Origin: a virus | Virus record (IMG/VR): IMGVR_UViG_3300028800_000347 | Location: 1-20,795 of that record | Direction: 5' to 3' (one strand) | DNA length: 20,795 nt | Shown: positions 1,181-20,795 of the stretch, piece after piece | How the letters are laid out: each line of letters opens with the position of its first letter | Position numbering within the stretch: position 1 is the stretch's first letter | The notes under the pieces: generated by a model | What the model saw: the letters and a program-made list of their open reading frames with translations, nothing else | Database searches by the model: none | Told to the model about the DNA's origin: nothing | Translations under genes and position numbers: made by a program

Positions 1181-1879
1181 ATGGCTAACAATTATATTCC
1201 TGGAACCACGAACGCAACCTTGATTGCGGATGGCGGAATCATATCGACTCCGGCTCCAACTAAGGTTGCTGGAGATAAAGTTAATGCGGTTCTAGAGCTG
1301 CAAACAACGACTCGCGCGCCTGTTTTCATGAAACCCATGACGACTGCGCAGATTGCGGCTATTCCTAACCCAACGAATGGTATGGAAGCTTTTGACGGTG
1401 ATTTAGGTAGATTTGTTCAGTATTACGGAGGCGCTTGGAATCAAGTTAATCCTTTGAACAGAACAAATTACACTTCTGGGACTTTGGCTACCGCTGACGT
1501 TCAAGGTATGTATGCAGCCCCGGTCGCTGTCGCATCGTTGCCGGCTCTTGCTGCTGGGTTAACTTATGTTGTTCATGGATTAAGACTCGTTCTTGATTCA
1601 GTAACAGCAGCGTTTACGGGTGGTGGCGCAATTCAGCTTCAATACGGAAATACGGTTAATGCTGGCGGAGTAGCTGCGGCCAATACGGTTGCAGCAACAT
1701 TCTTGACAGCGGCGGTTGCTGGAACAGATAGAACTATTTATACGACGGGCCTGGATGGCTCGGCTCAGACCGCGGCTGCATCACTAACATTAGGAATGTA
1801 CTTTTCAAATGCAACAGCAGCTTTTGCAGCAGGTGGAACATCAAGTATTGCTTACCAAATCTGGTATTCGGTTGTCTAA
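1181..1879 (+). CDS. Fibre-like or head decoration protein
   Basis: This 232-residue protein follows the capsid gene by 14 bases, with AAGGAGA at 1168-1174. Residues about 37-87 carry a motif common in phage fibres: LELQTTT, then a KPMTTAQIAAIPNP segment, NGMEAFDGD and a closing YYGGAWNQV. It usually links a fibre stem to a tip. The rest (about 95-232) is an Ala/Gly/Thr-rich beta domain with FTGGGAIQLQYGNT and a C-terminal SIAYQIWYSVV strand, a fold type repeatedly found beside phage capsid genes. I infer a head fibre or decoration protein from the gene position; a minor tail-fibre role is possible. No membrane segment or signal peptide is visible. Confidence 0.7.
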   Translation: MANNYIPGTTNATLIADGGIISTPAPTKVAGDKVNAVLELQTTTRAPVFMKPMTTAQIAAIPNPTNGMEAFDGDLGRFVQYYGGAWNQVNPLNRTNYTSGTLATADVQGMYAAPVAVASLPALAAGLTYVVHGLRLVLDSVTAAFTGGGAIQLQYGNTVNAGGVAAANTVAATFLTAAVAGTDRTIYTTGLDGSAQTAAASLTLGMYFSNATAAFAAGGTSSIAYQIWYSVV

Positions 1880-3069: not shown

Positions 3070-4122
3070 ATGTCGACATCAGGAACATACGAATTTGGTT
3101 CTACCACGAACGAGAAAATCATAAGGGAAGCTTATGAAAGAGTTGGCGTTGTAGGAAATTTAATAGTTGGGCAGAAAGTAGAATCCGCCTTAATGTCATT
3201 AAATTTTATCTGCGTTTCTTGGATAAACAAAAGACTAAATCTATTCACAATAAAACAAGGCATGTTAGGTCTCGTCCCAGGACAGGGAACCTACATAATG
3301 CCAGGCTATGTAGTTGACATCTTAAAATGTAGCCTTAGAAACTCTACGCGAAACTTAGGAGGTACGGCTGTCGCATCTGAAGGTGCTGCAATTAATGCTT
3401 TCGACGGAAATCCTGATACTGCCTGTACGCAAACGACCCCTAATGGAAATATTAGCTATTCGTGGGGAGGTGGCCTCAGAGCTATTTCAATGATAGGCGT
3501 CATGTCCTTTGTTGATAGAAATTATACATTGAAGGCCCAATACTCTTATGACGGTGCAACCTGGGTTGATGCTCTTGTTACAGAGCAAACTTCTTACAGA
3601 AAAAACATTATCGAGTGGTTTACGATACCAACACCCATATCAGCAGGATATTTTAGAATACTAGAAACCGGTGGCTCCGTTTTAAATATTTCCGAACTCT
3701 ATTTCAACAACAACACAATTGATTCTCCTTTATCTAAATCATCTTGGAGTGATTACAACGTTTATGCTAATAAAGACCAGATTGGCACACCATGCTCTTT
3801 CTGGTTTGACAGACAAATAACGCCAGTTCTTAACATATATCAAGTTCCAGGTAATATTTATAACAACATTTTTTATACGTTTAAAAGACAAATACAAGAT
3901 ATTGGAGATATGGTTGATACTGCTGAAATACCAACAAGATTTTTTGACGCTTTAACATCCGAGCTTGCTTACAGGCTTTGTATAAAAGAGAAAAAACTTG
4001 AATTGCTTGATGCATTAAAGCAGGAAGCATATGAGGCATTTAAATACGTTGCTTTTGAAGACGAAGAAAGCGTTCCCGTGAAAATAACCCCTAAAGCTGC
4101 CACTCGATGGAGTGCAAGATAA
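3070..4122 (+). CDS. Head-to-tail adaptor (P22 gp4-like tail accessory factor) with inserted discoidin-like domain
   Basis: A 350-residue protein. Residues 15-85 (helices with IIREAYERVGVV, LNFICVSWINKRLNLFTIKQ, then GTYIMPGYVVDIL) and 225-340 (DYNVYANKDQ, FWFDRQ, LNIYQVPGN, FDALTSELAYRL) together match the phage adaptor proteins that sit between portal and tail in short-tailed phages and seal packaged DNA. Between them, residues about 95-222 form a separate beta domain: AINAFDGNPDTACTQ, a YSYDGATWVDAL strand and a final GYFRILETGG segment look like an F5/8 type C (discoidin) carbohydrate-binding fold. AAAGGATGG at 3057-3065 precedes the ATG. The stop overlaps the next start by one base. Confidence 0.8.
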   Translation: MSTSGTYEFGSTTNEKIIREAYERVGVVGNLIVGQKVESALMSLNFICVSWINKRLNLFTIKQGMLGLVPGQGTYIMPGYVVDILKCSLRNSTRNLGGTAVASEGAAINAFDGNPDTACTQTTPNGNISYSWGGGLRAISMIGVMSFVDRNYTLKAQYSYDGATWVDALVTEQTSYRKNIIEWFTIPTPISAGYFRILETGGSVLNISELYFNNNTIDSPLSKSSWSDYNVYANKDQIGTPCSFWFDRQITPVLNIYQVPGNIYNNIFYTFKRQIQDIGDMVDTAEIPTRFFDALTSELAYRLCIKEKKLELLDALKQEAYEAFKYVAFEDEESVPVKITPKAATRWSAR

Positions 4123-4631
4123 TGGCAATACGTAAAGGGCGATATTACAGAACAGGGACGAGAAACCCAGAAGCGAAAGGCATCTGTGACCGCTCTAGCT
4201 TCGCTTTTAATCACAGCGACCTTGTTAAGCAAATGGAATGGCGCGGAAATTCCCTTGAATGGACAGGCTTAATGGTTGGAAGACCATTTCTTGACGAGCC
4301 AAACGAACAATTGAGAAACCCTGAAGTCGGTCCCGATTCTATTCCAGTTCCCGACCCAAAATTGCCTGTTTACACGCCAGTGGTTTTTTCAAATCAAATG
4401 ATACCTTTTTCTCAACTTCCAATATTAAATTTTGCTTCATGGGGCGGTATTCAGCAGGGTGTATTAGCAGCACCCGAAGACGAAAGGCTTGAAGCATTAG
4501 AAGAGCAAATTCCTGCACCCGTTGAAAATATTTCTAGTTCATCTCAATCATTTGTACAGGAGTTAACACAGGCACAAATTTTAAATAATCTCGAAAACTA
4601 TGATTGGAGCCAAACACAATGGCAGATTTAA
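4122..4631 (+). CDS. Degenerate phage zinc-ribbon-like small protein
   Basis: A 169-residue protein. Its first 75 residues follow a small phage protein often found beside adaptor genes, with the pattern 'CDRxxF ... HSDL ... WRGN ... WTGL ... LDEP ... QLRNP'. In zinc-ribbon members the pattern is CxxC plus a second Cys pair; here only Cys22 remains, with Ser25 in the second position and no Cys in GRPFLDEP (53-60). The C-terminal half is low-complexity and acidic (Glu/Gln/Pro/Ser) and looks unstructured. I chose ATG 4122 (one-base overlap with the upstream stop; GGAG at 4109-4112) over in-frame codons from 4107. It overlaps the next gene by 13 bases. Function unknown. Confidence 0.75.
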   Translation: MAIRKGRYYRTGTRNPEAKGICDRSSFAFNHSDLVKQMEWRGNSLEWTGLMVGRPFLDEPNEQLRNPEVGPDSIPVPDPKLPVYTPVVFSNQMIPFSQLPILNFASWGGIQQGVLAAPEDERLEALEEQIPAPVENISSSSQSFVQELTQAQILNNLENYDWSQTQWQI

Positions 4632-6961
4632 CGTTATTAGCTCCACAATCAGCATATCCTTCGATATTGACAACTACGTCTCCGAATGGCCTGTCAAATG
4701 TTTTACAAGTTATTACGGACGGATTAAACCATCCTTCGCCCCTGTCTCTTTCTACTAATGCAATTAATATCAATACACAAATGGGTGGAGCCGGTGCTGG
4801 GTTTTTTATTGATGGCATTAAAATAGATTTAATACCAGCTAACCTAAATTCTGTTTTAAGAGGCGATTTTTCTTATTTATTTACTGCTTTAAGAATTCCT
4901 AATGGCACTACTGAACAAAGGCCAGACCCTGCTAGCAATGGGGATTTTAGATATAACACAACAACAGATAGGATTGAAGCTGTTGAGAATGGTTCGTGGA
5001 TAGAAATAACTTCAGCCGGTGGCGGCTATGGTCCAGGCGATCCAACCTTTATATCAGATACCTACGGGGCTGATACTTTTAACGTTTTCCTTGGAACTCC
5101 TGAGCCTGATTTTACGAATAGAGTTGAGTGTACTCTTTTCGGAGACAAAGTTTTACAGGCTGTTTCTTCGGGTTCCCGTCTCTCTGCATTTGGTTACCAA
5201 AGTTTAACCGCAAATACAACTGGATTTAATAATTCCGCCTTTGGTCATTTGAGTGGTTCATCTTTAACGATTGGATTTAATAATAGTTTATTCGGAAAAT
5301 CTTGCGGTCAAAATCTTGTTTCAGGGGACAATAACTGCATCTTTGGTTTTGAATCTGGTCTTGGTTTAACCGGAAATAGCAACTCAGTATTTGGAGTAGG
5401 CGCCGGAAGAAGTAATAGTAACGGCGATAATAATTGCTTCTTTGGATTTGAATCCTCCAGAAATTCTGATGTGGTTTCAAACTGTTCTTCATATGGCTTT
5501 AATTCTCTCAGAAACAATGAATCAAATTTATGCTGCGCATTTGGCTCTCTTGCAGCTTACAATAATATTTCGGGAACCCTTATAAATGCCTTCGGATACT
5601 CTGCGTTGTATTCAAATTCATTCGGAAATGAAAACAGTGCATTTGCTGATGAGGCCTTATTTAATAACCAAGACGGCGATTATAACTGTGCATTTGGTTC
5701 ACAATCCGCATACTCTAGCCTTAGCGCAAATTCGGTGTCTGCTTACGGCCATCATTCTTTAAAAGCCAATTTAACATCTTCAAATTCTGCGTTTGGTAAA
5801 GATTCAGCACTATCTAATACAACCGGAACTGTAGACGCATTCGGGTTTGAATCATTAAAAACAAATACAACTGGAACTTCTAATTGCTCGTTTGGACGCG
5901 CTTCTCTTCGCGCAAATACTGTTGCTGGTAGCCTAAGTGCGTTTGGTTATCAGGCTGCTACTGCTTTTAATGGCGGAGCGGCAAATAATATCATAAGCGC
6001 TTTTGGTTATCAGGCTGCTTATAATACTAATCCAGCTCCCGCTACAGATTTATATTATGTAGATGTGTTTGGTGTTCAGGCTGCTTTTTTAAACACGACC
6101 GGAAATTATAATACTGGCTTTGGCGCTTATACAATTTATTGCAACCAGACGGGAGATAATAATAGTGCCTTTGGAAGCTGGGCATGCGGCGGAAATAATG
6201 GTACCCCTTCTAGCTGTTCAGATAATAGCGCATTTGGCGCGTTTTCCCTAGGGAGCGTCACGACGGGCTCAAGCAATACCTCGATAGGAGCGCTTTGTTT
6301 TCAAGATATAAGCACGGGCAGTAACAACGTTGGCGTTGGATATAATGTTAGCTCAAACCGTAACACCATATCAAAATGTACGCTTATTGGAAATGCTGTT
6401 AATACATCTTCTGACGGATTAACTTATGCAACTGCAATAGGCGCTGATGCAGTCGTTGGCGCAAGTCACTCCCTTGTCTTAGGAAGGCTTGACAACACTA
6501 ACCCTACAAAAGTCGGTATAGGCACTATAGCACCAGCTTCCCCATTGCATATTGTTGGTGATTTTAGACAAAAAGGAATTGTTACAGATTTTACAGGAAC
6601 TGACTTATTAACAAGGCAGCATGGATTTATAGTTGTTTCTTCAGCAACCTCTACGTTAGATTTTCCACTCCAGGTAAACTCGGCTAATGCAGTATTTGTA
6701 AAAATAAGAATACTTGTTATGAACAGTGGGACACTATTTGCTTTTGCAGAATCTACCGCCTGCGCATCCTCTAATACGGTAAGTGCTACGGCTATTGGGT
6801 CTCTACCAACTATCACGTACACCGCATCTTCTGGTTCTTTCACGCCAACATCTGCATGGTCAGTTTCGGGTAATAACTTAAGACTTTCGTTAACTGGTGA
6901 TGCAGATGACGTAAATATATTTGTTGTTACATCAGAATTATTTGCAGTTAATGGAAGTTGA
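4619..6961 (+). CDS. Large fibre protein with beta-roll repeat shaft
   Basis: A 780-residue fibre. Residues 1-95 form an N-terminal, probably virion-binding domain. Residues about 96-130 carry the fibre motif GTTEQRPDPASNGDFRYNTT ending in ENGSWIEI. From about 189 to 623 there are some 24 repeats of 14-22 residues, consensus '(S/C)AFGxxSLxxNTTGxNN', like the beta-roll of YadA-type trimeric adhesins. Then comes KVGIGTIAPASPLHIVG (about 629-645) and a terminal beta domain of about 125 residues. This position often leads into a self-cleaving peptidase S74 chaperone, but none is recognisable here. The start is ATG 4619, with GGAG at 4606-4609; an in-frame TTG at 4604 lies before that site. Probably a trimeric adhesin for host or surface binding. 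Confidence 0.82.
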   Translation: MADLTLLAPQSAYPSILTTTSPNGLSNVLQVITDGLNHPSPLSLSTNAININTQMGGAGAGFFIDGIKIDLIPANLNSVLRGDFSYLFTALRIPNGTTEQRPDPASNGDFRYNTTTDRIEAVENGSWIEITSAGGGYGPGDPTFISDTYGADTFNVFLGTPEPDFTNRVECTLFGDKVLQAVSSGSRLSAFGYQSLTANTTGFNNSAFGHLSGSSLTIGFNNSLFGKSCGQNLVSGDNNCIFGFESGLGLTGNSNSVFGVGAGRSNSNGDNNCFFGFESSRNSDVVSNCSSYGFNSLRNNESNLCCAFGSLAAYNNISGTLINAFGYSALYSNSFGNENSAFADEALFNNQDGDYNCAFGSQSAYSSLSANSVSAYGHHSLKANLTSSNSAFGKDSALSNTTGTVDAFGFESLKTNTTGTSNCSFGRASLRANTVAGSLSAFGYQAATAFNGGAANNIISAFGYQAAYNTNPAPATDLYYVDVFGVQAAFLNTTGNYNTGFGAYTIYCNQTGDNNSAFGSWACGGNNGTPSSCSDNSAFGAFSLGSVTTGSSNTSIGALCFQDISTGSNNVGVGYNVSSNRNTISKCTLIGNAVNTSSDGLTYATAIGADAVVGASHSLVLGRLDNTNPTKVGIGTIAPASPLHIVGDFRQKGIVTDFTGTDLLTRQHGFIVVSSATSTLDFPLQVNSANAVFVKIRILVMNSGTLFAFAESTACASSNTVSATAIGSLPTITYTASSGSFTPTSAWSVSGNNLRLSLTGDADDVNIFVVTSELFAVNGS
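5183..6490 (+). repeat. Coding beta-roll repeats (about 24 units, 42-66 bp each)
   Basis: Within the fibre gene, the codons for 'xAFG' recur every 14-22 residues. Well-preserved units read SAFGYQSLTANTTGFNN, SAFGKDSALSNTTG and DAFGFESLKTNTTGTSN. The repeats are diverged at DNA level, so this is an old protein-level repeat rather than a recent tandem expansion. Unit length varies most around units 16, 17 and 20, where extra residues enter the turn. Several units have Cys in the first position where others have Ser. Confidence 0.85.
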
Positions 6962-17015: not shown

Positions 17016-19439
17016 ATGCCAGCATTATATACAACAACTTACACCGCTGTTTTTTCAGGAGAAAACGTATATCCAGCGTTTCCCCAATATACTGCTTTTC
17101 CTTTAACTAGAGATATTATTCTTTCATGGCCAGGTGGTTTTCAAAATCTGAATATGATTACCTCTCCAAATATGGACATCACGCCAGATGTGGGTGGCTG
17201 GACTGTAACAATGCCAGATGCAACAGGTGCAGGGGTTGGTTTTGCTTGTGAAATAAATAATCCTGGGAATTTTAGCTTTGACCTCTTAGATAACGACGGT
17301 AATTTAATAATTGCTATTCCAGCAGGCAACGCAAAAAAAATATGGCTTATTAATAATTCAACGAATGCTGGTTTATGGCGAACTTTTCCAGGTGGTGGTG
17401 GAGGCGGTGGTGCTGTTACTTCAGTTAATGCGGCTTCTGCTTCGGATAATCTTCTCATTACAGGAACGCCCGGCTTGCCTATCATAGGCGCAGGTACTAT
17501 TAATTTTGCATTAGCTAAAGATTTATTAGAATTATCGTCATTTGCTGCATCTACCGGATTTGCTGTACGAACAGCCGCCGATACATGGGCGCTTCGAGAC
17601 ATCAATGGCACAGCGGGACAAATAACCGTTACCAATCCTGATGGCGTCGCAGGAAATATTACAATTGGCCTCTCTTTAACTCTGGCTGGATTAACCTCTA
17701 TTGGAGTTGGCAATCTTTCTTTATCGGGAAATACGATTGCTTCTACCAATAATAATGGGGAAATTTTATTAAACCCTCAAGGAACCGGGGTAATTGGATT
17801 AGGTAAGGATACAGAGCTACGCACTGGCTCAAAATTGAAATTTTTTAATGATGCTGGCACTCACTATATCTCGTTCAAAGCGGCCGCTGCATTTCCTGCA
17901 GATTTAGACCTTACATGGCCTGTAGCAGTCCCGGTTGTTGGACAGCTTTTATCCTACACGGCTCCCAATACCCTTGGATGGGCATCTGTCCCTATTATAC
18001 CAGGCGGTCCAACTACCTTAAATGCTGTCGCAAGATATGCAAATACTGGAGGAGGGCTTGCTAATTCTGTTTTAATTTTGGATGACCCAGGTAACGCCAG
18101 CGGCCTTTTATCATGTCAAATTGGGGATATTCTAATAGGGGGGGTTTCATCTCTGGCTACTTTAGTAACCCTTGTACCTAATCAAGATTTTACACTTAGC
18201 CCAAATGGTGCCGGCACTGTACTGATAACATCCGATGCTCTTTTAAAGAAAAGCACAACGCAATCGAGGCTTCGGCTTTATGACAATACTGACACCCGTT
18301 TTGCTGGATTAATGGCAAATCCGGCTATGACCAATAATTTTACATGGACTCTACCGGCAACAGGGAATACAGCTGGCTATTTCTTTACAGACGCCGCGAA
18401 TAGCCTTTCAGTACAGAACCCAACAGTGGGTGCCGTCGGTGCAATTGGAGATATCCCGGTATTTAATGATACAACTGGTAATCTTTTCAAAGACTCGGGC
18501 ATTAATATTAGTACGGGTGGTGATATTTCTAGGGCTGGTGCAATGTCTTTGTCTGCCACGGGCGCTAATCTTACTCTTGGCGCAGGAACGACTGCGCAGG
18601 TATTAGTGGGCGGTGCTTCGACAACCTTAATAACACTTAATAATTCTCAAGCAAATACTACTACTGTTAGGTCCTATGGAGTCTTGAATGTGCTTTCTAC
18701 TTCTGGTCCAACCATAAGTACATTAAAGCTTTTTAATCTTGCAAATACGTTTGGAATAAATCTTCAGGCACCCTCTGCCTTAGGAGCTAATGCAACTTTT
18801 GTTTTACCGTCTGCGGCATCCGCAGGTGCTTTATTAAGTGATGTGAGTGGTAATTTTTCAATAACTAATACAAATTCTAATATTACGACATTTTCTAATA
18901 CAACTGATTCATCATCGACTGTAACTGGTGCATTAATTTGCTCAGGCGGTCTTGGTATTGCAAAGAAAGGTTTTTTTGGAGATAGAATAACGTCGCCTAG
19001 TATTGCTTTCTCATCAACTGATGGAATTATTGGAACAACAACAAACAATAGCGCAACAGCAGGAAGTGTCGGTGAATATGTATCAGGAAACGCAACAGCT
19101 GTTTCATTCACTTCGGGCGTTCCTAAAAATTTTACTTCTATTTCATTAACAGCGGGAGACTGGGAGGTAAGTGGCGCTGTTCAGTATACTGCCAGCGGAA
19201 CCATGACTGTTATCATTGGCAGCATAAGCACAACAAGTGCTACTATCAACAGTACCACAACAGCATTTACCCAATTTAACTTGAGCGGATGGACGGCAGG
19301 AGGTCTTCAAGCGGCACCCGTTGCATCAACGCGTATTTCATTAGCAAGTACAACAACTGTCTATTTAGTTGGTCAGTCTAATTTTTCATCCGGGGTTGTA
19401 AACGGTAATGGATATATGCAAGCATGGAGGATTCGTTAG
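17016..19439 (+). CDS. Tail fibre protein
   Basis: An 807-residue fibre at the end of the structural operon. Residues 1-125 form an N-terminal virion-attachment domain, followed by a seven-Gly linker (126-132) and VTSVNAASASDNLLITGTPG, a standard fibre junction. Three copies of the fibre module 'LxfxnxxgtxxxxxxAPaxlxxnxTxxLP ... G.ll..d..gnl.w' lie near 266-322, 413-469 and 564-616. The C-terminus (FTSISLTAGDWEVSGAVQYT to RISLASTTTVYLVGQSNF, ending MQAWRIR) is a typical globular fibre tip, likely the receptor-binding end. No peptidase S74, C-type lectin or variable-repeat signature is seen. GAAGGAGGA at 17001-17009 precedes the ATG. A seven-G run at 18138-18144 is in frame. Confidence 0.85.
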   Translation: MPALYTTTYTAVFSGENVYPAFPQYTAFPLTRDIILSWPGGFQNLNMITSPNMDITPDVGGWTVTMPDATGAGVGFACEINNPGNFSFDLLDNDGNLIIAIPAGNAKKIWLINNSTNAGLWRTFPGGGGGGGAVTSVNAASASDNLLITGTPGLPIIGAGTINFALAKDLLELSSFAASTGFAVRTAADTWALRDINGTAGQITVTNPDGVAGNITIGLSLTLAGLTSIGVGNLSLSGNTIASTNNNGEILLNPQGTGVIGLGKDTELRTGSKLKFFNDAGTHYISFKAAAAFPADLDLTWPVAVPVVGQLLSYTAPNTLGWASVPIIPGGPTTLNAVARYANTGGGLANSVLILDDPGNASGLLSCQIGDILIGGVSSLATLVTLVPNQDFTLSPNGAGTVLITSDALLKKSTTQSRLRLYDNTDTRFAGLMANPAMTNNFTWTLPATGNTAGYFFTDAANSLSVQNPTVGAVGAIGDIPVFNDTTGNLFKDSGINISTGGDISRAGAMSLSATGANLTLGAGTTAQVLVGGASTTLITLNNSQANTTTVRSYGVLNVLSTSGPTISTLKLFNLANTFGINLQAPSALGANATFVLPSAASAGALLSDVSGNFSITNTNSNITTFSNTTDSSSTVTGALICSGGLGIAKKGFFGDRITSPSIAFSSTDGIIGTTTNNSATAGSVGEYVSGNATAVSFTSGVPKNFTSISLTAGDWEVSGAVQYTASGTMTVIIGSISTTSATINSTTTAFTQFNLSGWTAGGLQAAPVASTRISLASTTTVYLVGQSNFSSGVVNGNGYMQAWRIR

Positions 19440-19473
19440 ATATAATATATCCTGAAACAGGTCGGCCTAGGCC
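19439..19473. repeat. Three consecutive dyads at the convergent junction
   Basis: Three symmetric sequences follow each other: GATATAATATATC (19439-19451, perfect about its central A), CCTGAAACAGG (19451-19461, four-base arms and three-base loop) and GGCCTAGGCC (19464-19473, perfect). They fill the whole 27-base gap between the fibre stop and the stop of the minus-strand gene. They could form weak hairpins on either strand or be protein sites. There is no T-run, so a classical intrinsic terminator is not supported. Confidence 0.6.
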
Positions 19474-19793
19474 TCTTCAATGGCTTTCCTAACATCATAT
19501 TCTGTTAAAGCAGAGTGAATAGGAAAGTCCATTATCGAAAGTTTTTGTAGCTTATTTTGCTTGCCTTTTCCCCATTCTATTACAAAGCAATCAAAAAATA
19601 CTTTTTCTTTCTGAACATCAACGGGATTCATGGTCCCTGCGCAAAGCGTTTCAGTGAATGTAATTTGTTTTCTCTTCATTAGAAAAGCAAAGTCTTTTTC
19701 CATTCCCAGAATAAATATGTTTTCATTTTTGTCACATTCATTAACAATAACTTCCCCAATATCTACTTTTTTCGGCTTCGCATTCTTGACCAT
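19467..19793 (-). CDS. 108-residue protein of unknown function
   Basis: The last gene of the minus-strand group, starting in a one-base overlap with the MarR-type gene (TAATG) and preceded by AAGGGA. The protein is mixed alpha/beta, with an IGEVIVNECDKNENIFILGM strand region, FAFLMKRKQITFTETLCAG, and VFFDCFVIEWGKGKQNK. It has three cysteines and no membrane segment. I do not recognise a family. The stop TAG at 19469-19467 lies inside the GGCCTAGGCC dyad. Coupling to the regulator suggests a shared role. Confidence 0.7.
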   Translation of the reverse strand: MVKNAKPKKVDIGEVIVNECDKNENIFILGMEKDFAFLMKRKQITFTETLCAGTMNPVDVQKEKVFFDCFVIEWGKGKQNKLQKLSIMDFPIHSALTEYDVRKAIEEA

Positions 19794-20245
19794 TATTTTG
19801 CTTCCCTTCTTAGTTTGATAACATCTTTATTAAATTTAGACAAATAATCTATAAATTTATCCTTATCTTTAGCAATAACCCCAAAACTTTCTTCAATTTT
19901 CAGAACCTTCGGCATCATTTTTTTTAATAATTTAGCGCCTTCCTCTGTAAGCGCCGGATAAACAGCTCTTCTATCAGCCGGGTCTTTGTGAAACTGTATG
20001 TACTGAGGCATCTGCTGTATACAAAGTTTTAACGAATGCTGATACATGACTAATTTTTTGGCTATATAATCCATATGATAGCCCCTGTATTCAGAAATGG
20101 CGTACATTATATGAATCTGACTCATACTTACGCCGTATCGCTTCAAAGATTTATTGAAAATCGTATTTATAGCGCGAGCACACATAGAAATACTAAGCCC
20201 TATTAACTCAACATTATTACTTTTTAATGGAATATCATTACTCAT
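19793..20245 (-). CDS. MarR-family winged-helix regulator
   Basis: A 150-residue protein with the MarR layout: N-terminal dimerisation helix (12-35), GVSMSQIHIMYAISEYRG (38-55), a helix-turn-helix (about 56-80: IAKKLVMYQHSLKLCIQQM), wing with DPADRR (88-93) and ALTEEGAKLL (98-107), then C-terminal dimer helices. The DxRR wing is the diagnostic feature. The segment after the recognition helix (PQYIQFHKD) departs from the usual 'LExxGxIxR', so DNA or ligand specificity may differ. MarR proteins usually repress nearby genes; autorepression of this cassette is a reasonable inference, but its promoter lies beyond the right edge. The ATG overlaps the upstream small ORF by 8 bases; its own ribosome site is weak. 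Confidence 0.85.
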   Translation of the reverse strand: MSNDIPLKSNNVELIGLSISMCARAINTIFNKSLKRYGVSMSQIHIMYAISEYRGYHMDYIAKKLVMYQHSLKLCIQQMPQYIQFHKDPADRRAVYPALTEEGAKLLKKMMPKVLKIEESFGVIAKDKDKFIDYLSKFNKDVIKLRREAK

Positions 20246-20363
20246 CTAAATCAATACCTAAAATACTTTTTGAAAACCAATAAATCGAGCTAAGCAAGGT
20301 AAAAAAACCTATAAAACCCATACATAAAAACGATAACGCATCGTAAGCCTCATTATAAACCAT
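20238..20363 (-). CDS. 41-residue single-pass membrane protein (small ORF)
   Basis: Read directly from the minus strand: ATG at 20363, TAA at 20240-20238. An AGGAG a few bases before the ATG, next to the previous stop codon, makes a good ribosome site. The product starts MVYNEAYDA and has one hydrophobic segment (ALSFLCMGFIGFFTLLSSIY, residues about 9-28), followed by a short tail ending GIDLDE. Its last codons overlap the MarR start by 8 bases (ATGAGTAA), so it probably feeds ribosomes to that gene. The 8-base gap behind the upstream membrane-protein gene shows it is part of the same unit. Function unknown. Confidence 0.72.
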   Translation of the reverse strand: MVYNEAYDALSFLCMGFIGFFTLLSSIYWFSKSILGIDLDE

Positions 20364-20371
20364 ATAGACTC

Positions 20372-20611
20372 CTAAAAGAATTTAACGCTCATCAGAATAA
20401 CTTTTAATATTAAACAATACACAAACACACAAAAGAAGAAAAAATCAAAATCTCTCATAAAGAAGTCCTTAATTTTTTCAACTTTGTCATCAATCCATCT
20501 AAAATAGGTATGCTTTTTTAGAAATCCATTTATTTTAAAAATAAGCCAAAAAAAGGCGTTTATAAAAATAAATATATTTATTAATTCAACTATTTTTTGT
20601 GAAAAAATCAT
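20372..20611 (-). CDS. 79-residue two-pass membrane protein
   Basis: ATG at 20611, with AAAGGA 8 bases before. Two hydrophobic segments, one at residues about 8-30 (ELINIFIFINAFFWLIFKI) and one at about 55-76 (FDFFFFCVFVYCLILKVILM), flank a charged loop with HTYFRWIDDKVEKIKDFF. The size and topology resemble class II holins, but no endolysin is visible and Phe content is unusual, so I do not call it a holin. Other options are a superinfection-exclusion or membrane sensor protein. The start overlaps the upstream stop (ATGA), indicating coupling. Function unknown. Confidence 0.7.
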   Translation of the reverse strand: MIFSQKIVELINIFIFINAFFWLIFKINGFLKKHTYFRWIDDKVEKIKDFFMRDFDFFFFCVFVYCLILKVILMSVKFF

Positions 20612-20795
20612 AATATCAATCCTTTGTTAGTAGCTATCATTATTTTTTGACCACACCATTCTGGTATTTGCCGAATGTCGCCGCCCAAGAAACCTATTTC
20701 GCAATGCTGACCTGTCTTTAATTTAACGAGTAAAACATAATCATACTCACACCCCGTTCTAATAACGAAGCTATCAAAGTTTTTCCCTCTTGTAA
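20608..20795 (-). CDS. C-terminal end of an unknown protein (partial)
   Basis: Open from the right edge (first whole codon at 20793) to TGA at 20610-20608, giving 61 residues. The segment reads FDSFVIRTGCEYDYVLLVKL, then KTGQHCEIGFLGGDIRQIP, ending QKIMIATNKGLIL, and looks like a small mixed alpha/beta soluble domain. The stop overlaps the start of the two-pass membrane gene (ATGA). It is too short to place in a family, and the N-terminus is outside the window. Confidence 0.65.
   Translation of the reverse strand, partial: TRGKNFDSFVIRTGCEYDYVLLVKLKTGQHCEIGFLGGDIRQIPEWCGQKIMIATNKGLIL

Follow-up and report, generated by a model that had tools for sequence, protein, structure and literature searches.

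A MarR-type regulator and its small neighbours facing the virion operon of uncultivated podovirus-like phages: a candidate early regulatory operon

What is a MarR-type regulator, accompanied by two tiny membrane proteins, doing opposite the virion operon of a phage? The window analysed here is a whole virus record of 20,795 bases, the right end of which truncates the first frame of the gene group in question. As the sequence-only reading had described, five minus-strand frames are tightly packed against the end of the virion operon. The rightmost (20608–20793, minus strand) comprises the 3'-terminal 61 codons of a gene encoding a soluble 102/108-residue protein; it is open at the right edge, with about 42 N-terminal residues lying off the window, and its product carries the motif IPEW(C/S)GQKI. 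This frame overlaps by 4 bp that of a 79-residue membrane protein (20372–20611, minus strand) with two predicted transmembrane helices (residues 7–25 and 58–76) joined by a K/R-rich loop. After a gap of 8 bp comes the frame for a 41-residue one-pass membrane protein with the C-terminus ILGIDLDE (20238–20363, minus strand), which overlaps by 8 bp the gene for a 150-residue MarR-like winged-helix regulator (19793–20245, minus strand); this in turn shares 1 bp with the frame for a 108-residue protein, the final gene of the operon (19467–19793, minus strand). Only 27 bp separate the latter from its convergent neighbour, the last gene of the late operon, which encodes an 807-residue fibre-like virion protein (17016–19439, plus strand). 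Purine-rich sequences resembling ribosome binding sites precede three of the four complete frames, namely AAGGGAAG, AGGAG and AAGGA 5' of the 108-, 41- and 79-residue frames, respectively.

Three relatives were found in IMG/VR: IMGVR_UViG_3300011425_000005 (G001; 50.8 kb) via the stabilisation protein, and 3300035725_000004 (G002; 51.3 kb) and 3300050512_000119 (G003; 52.4 kb) via two-sequence profiles. Scans of IMG/VR with the single MarR, 108-residue or 79-residue protein gave no match, and when scans were repeated with four-sequence profiles these three relatives alone were recovered. Judging from their ends, the relatives are probably complete, circularly permuted genomes; IMG/VR lists no end repeats for them. 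The sequence-only reading had proposed a search for the same gene order in other phages, and it is present in these three. Running towards the fibre gene, the order is the 102/108-residue gene, optional membrane genes, the MarR-like gene, an optional K-rich gene (in G003) and a gene for 108–165 residues, and this order, the orientation and the convergent place behind the fibre gene are common to all four phages. Identities to the relatives are 44–59% for the partial gene (59% to G001, 44% to G003), 42–46% for the MarR gene, 37–47% for the 108-residue gene and 45–57% for the fibre gene at the same place. Since the partial, MarR and 108-residue genes have same-order homologues in three phages, and the 41-residue frame has one in a single phage, the five frames are not a product of chance.

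These phages are an uncultivated lineage of bacterial viruses, podovirus-like, whose plus-strand virion operon encodes a Mu gpT-like major capsid protein, an SU10-type adaptor, the stabilisation protein, ejection-type proteins and the fibre. Scans of prokaryote genomes with the MarR and major capsid alignments found neither a prophage nor a host, and none of the virion proteins or of 52 further proteins of G001 and G003 could be recognised as an integrase. The relatives do have RecT, a YqaJ exonuclease, a DnaD-like helicase loader and an RNA ligase. MarR matches in Listeria records of 1.5–2 kb were set aside because they look like host-type MarR fragments. The Caulobacter phages RW/GB2A and ctpbd312 have a similar virion operon, with 36–40% identity in the stabilisation protein (36% between the window and RW/GB2A), and they too have a convergent gene group on the opposite strand, although tblastn found no relative of the cassette proteins there; nor do other reference phages hold a relative of the 102/108-residue, MarR or 108-residue proteins. 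In the more distant GB2A, genes for helicase, endonuclease, polymerase and exonuclease are found on the strand facing the end of the virion operon, a layout consistent with an early-side operon ending at this place.

Two side observations concern the virion genes themselves. The protein at window positions 3070–4122 has a discoidin-like insert (F5/8 type C, E 7.9e-4, below the cut-off), and in G001 (L002, 5946–7007 and 10001–11911) a very similar stretch is also found within the stabilisation protein, a pattern that looks like the copying of a domain from one virion protein into another; the stabilisation protein of the window is without it. The gene that follows the major capsid gene is single in the window (1181–1879), while three tandem related copies are present in G001 (3299–5340) and in G002 (20932–22986).

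The identity of the regulator was examined by profile and by structure prediction. A four-sequence MarR profile matched 44 PDB sequences at E values up to 1, nearly all of the MarR family, with Hpr as the best match (E 2.7e-6). The AlphaFold2 model (mean pLDDT 72) contains helices at residues 13–37, 41–52, 58–64 and 69–77, strands at 83–87 and 95–99, and further helices at 101–122 and 128–149, corresponding to a winged helix-turn-helix with flanking dimer helices, the MarR topology. The top 50 Foldseek matches to this model are MarR-type regulators (1.3e-6 to the HsmR–DNA structure), with moderate TM-scores of 0.5–0.66. Like members of the MarR/SarA/Hpr superfamily (Hpr/ScoC 2fxa, HsmR 8zde, MepR and SlyA), the predicted protein has an N-terminal dimer helix, a helix-turn-helix, a two-stranded wing with D-x-R and C-terminal dimer helices; it differs from them in that a shorter turn links the recognition helix to the wing, and the single sequences that were scanned score under the curated Pfam cut-off for MarR/SarA. 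Between G001 and G002 the gene differs at 22, 8 and 60 first, second and third codon positions, and is thus under purifying selection. By profile and predicted fold, then, the cassette encodes a MarR family regulator, which would be expected to bind DNA. The earlier statement that no individual member of the group is recognised was wrong to this extent, for the MarR assignment made alongside it could be tested and is borne out by the PDB profile, the topology of the model and the pattern of codon-position conservation.

The wing residues D-x-R-x-x-Y-P-A-L-T-x-E-G-A are invariant across the four phages, whereas the recognition helix varies between the window, the G001/G002 pair and G003, suggestive of distinct DNA targets. 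In a manual alignment with MarR proteins, the position of the conserved DNA-contacting Arg is occupied by L in the window, V in G001 and G002, and R in G003; the comparison depends on manual counting because the alignment with pMarR (see below) is unreliable for locating this residue. Together with the variable recognition helix, this raises the possibility that in some of the phages the protein binds DNA differently or no longer at all.

Conservation of the two membrane proteins is of a different kind. The 41-residue protein has a homologue at the same place in G003, a 42-residue protein with 49% identity (z = 9.1 against hydropathy-class shuffles). The 79-residue protein and an 80-residue two-helix protein of G003 share 22% identity (p = 0.09 against hydropathy-preserving shuffles), so that the 79-residue frame is backed by position, size and two-helix pattern and not by sequence. 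Its basic loop has a charge of +8/−6 (+6/−1 in the G003 counterpart), which by the positive-inside rule points to a loop in the cytoplasm and both termini on the outside. The cassette of G003 contains three membrane genes in all, for a 121-residue one-helix, the 80-residue two-helix and the 42-residue one-helix protein; elsewhere in that phage (L023, 42442–42863) a second overlapping pair, encoding a two-helix 74-residue and a one-helix 70-residue protein, recalls the 79/41-residue layout, without clear sequence similarity. Both the 79- and the 41-residue protein are absent from the cassettes of G001 and G002. The membrane proteins are therefore optional and cannot be the core of the operon, and the notion of a fixed cassette coupling a regulator to membrane proteins fails, two of the three relatives keeping the MarR gene without either. 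Such presence/absence pairs among phages make it possible to ask what the two mini-proteins add.

The promoter, the start of the operon and a divergent RHH gene lie to the right of the window and were read from G001, G002 and G003. Extension in this direction had been proposed by the sequence-only reading; in the relatives it leads to a promoter region shared between the operon start and the adjoining RHH gene, while the window's own right side is unseen. The RHH protein matches Pfam NikA-like in G001 (2.9e-6) and G002 (3e-6), and DUF6290 in G003 (1.7e-4, below the cut-off). The gap between the divergent genes holds a conserved element of 45 bp (40/45 and 34/45 positions of the other two relatives match G001), which contains two putative promoters matching a sigma-70-like consensus, TTGACA-17-TAnnAT towards the cassette and TTGACT-17-TAnnAT towards the RHH gene. 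In all three relatives both have 17-nt spacers and the two overlap by 13 bp; the cassette-side promoter of G003 scores 11/12. Shuffled sequence yields 0–4 such loose divergent pairs per 184 kb, so the argument for these promoters rests on their conserved place. The surroundings of the promoter showed no clear MarR palindrome. The 17-bp left part of the element, TTGACAAATGATTTACA, recurs (16–17 of 17 positions) at a promoter-like site 5' of the RecT operon in G001 and G002, where all other sites in the scan score 15 or less, and was not found again in G003. This repeat suggests a link between the cassette and the early recombination operon, and hence early expression. In P22, the immI region places the Arc/Mnt RHH repressors near the tailspike gene. 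The present arrangement resembles it, by analogy only, in having an RHH-family regulator gene, with a divergent promoter, close to the end of the virion genes where the fibre is encoded, but no Ant-like gene is seen, the opposing gene is the MarR operon, and the RHH protein is closer to NikA-like/DUF6290 than to Arc.

The relatives thus show that the cassette forms the 3' end of a distinct operon on the opposite strand, which runs from the RHH-divergent promoter. From the sequence-only reading, what stands is a convergent group of conserved order comprising one-pass and two-pass mini-proteins, a MarR regulator and two unknown partners; its placement in the virion module does not. We favour, with slightly more confidence than doubt, the interpretation that a podovirus-like phage here has an early, leftward operon of accessory and regulatory genes, controlled by RHH and MarR proteins and convergent with the virion operon, and that the five frames form its promoter-distal end. 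Judging by homology, the operon of the window would likewise start off the window at two overlapping, divergent sigma-70-type promoters, one driving the RHH (NikA/Arc-like) regulator gene and the other the cassette. RNA polymerase could occupy just one of them at a time, and which one fires would be set by the RHH protein, probably together with MarR. Early in infection the 102-residue protein, MarR and the 108-residue protein would be made, joined in the window phage and G003 by two small inner-membrane proteins. MarR would be a dimeric winged-helix DNA-binding protein acting on its own operon, on host promoters or on both, and the membrane proteins would be optional cargo whose probable target is the host envelope. 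A bolder proposal, that this is a new kind of switch in which RHH and MarR genes flank mutually exclusive promoters, share an operator with RecT and use the optional membrane proteins (and csrA in one phage) as sensors or effectors, strikes us as distinctly doubtful. The compact overlapping promoter element of this conserved operon is testable with purified proteins and short DNA.

How far might the regulator act on the host instead? Phage MarR regulators are rarely studied, and the one worked-out example that we found is pMarR (PSSP7_011) of cyanophage P-SSP7, a MarR factor that activates host RNase E (PMC9692554). Here too a MarR-type factor belongs to a podovirus, and pMarR is an early gene that steers transcription during infection. 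With this direct precedent for a phage MarR factor activating a host gene, the present protein could act mainly by reprogramming host transcription, its operon neighbours being unrelated passengers; the presence of csrA, which encodes a host-type RNA-binding regulator, just upstream in the same operon of G003 (Pfam CsrA 6.7e-17) points the same way, and csrA has already been reported in phages (PMC7366521). Yet pMarR, with 124 residues and other neighbours, belongs to PHROG 9665 (1.9e-48), to which the window protein (E 0.22) and that of G003 (0.031) match less well than to PHROG 11961 (phrog_11961), itself a weak match for these proteins. There is little detectable profile similarity and no close homology, so that the present proteins are not placed in the pMarR family, and we regard a mainly host-directed role as unlikely. 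The kind is already known, since pMarR is a phage MarR factor; this family and its arrangement are new.

Two further readings concern the membrane proteins. Exclusion genes typically encode small, optional membrane proteins on the early side, and the 79- and 41-residue proteins fit this description, their presence or absence between related phages also fitting accessory cargo. As a superinfection-exclusion or host-envelope module, they might sit in the inner membrane and block phage entry or anti-phage defence signalling, with MarR setting the dose; neither matches any exclusion protein in Pfam or PHROGs, and we see this role as possible though rather improbable. A toxin–antitoxin pair was rejected for want of a family match. 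Lysis timing, which the sequence-only reading had also considered, would make the two adjacent small membrane proteins a holin/antiholin or pinholin pair, with expression timed by MarR and an endolysin encoded elsewhere. Lysis genes of an unrecognised type must indeed exist somewhere, as neither the virion operon nor 52 further proteins of G001 and G003 yielded a recognisable endolysin. Neither endolysin nor spanin, however, adjoins the cassette on either side in the three relatives, so that the same order inside a known lysis module, which would have overturned the original interpretation, was not encountered there; G001 and G002 retain the cassette without either membrane protein, and a holin is thus not common to all its bearers; the predicted topology of the 79-residue protein is the reverse of that of a class II holin; and a more distant relative keeps a holin and a peptidase beside the stabilisation protein, in the late operon. 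Since the cassette persists without membrane proteins and without adjacent endolysin or spanin genes, we consider a lysis role very unlikely. Naming an early regulatory operon is useful for annotation, as no lysis system has been recognised in this uncultivated lineage of phages.

The final gene of this candidate early operon encodes the 108-residue protein, whose homologues in G001–G003 have 129–165 residues with the C-terminal 100 conserved. Its model (pLDDT 85) is a small alpha/beta domain of order H-b-b-b-H-b-H with one structural match, the uncharacterised uncultured-phage protein A0A6J5KSL9 (E 5.9e-6, TM 0.68), and no significant match to a known fold in the PDB. Neither Gad1 (Foldseek E 0.02, TM 0.30) nor any of the VIA-align rows (best Z 4.2) was considered a significant match.

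G001 also encodes two secreted beta-barrel-like outer-membrane proteins (L007, 4694–5407, and L008, 1753–2571; Pfam OMP_b-brl 0.0065 and 2.4e-7), an unusual cargo for a phage, with homologues in G002 and G003. In G003, a gene of the 'LGIPEW...IPVGVNLEPVKW' family (L023, 9808–10422, and L013, 1–181) contains a GC-rich Ala/Ser/Trp repeat array at which the contig is broken; relatives of this family occur in Xanthomonas phages (31–35% identity) and on one Roseomonas plasmid.
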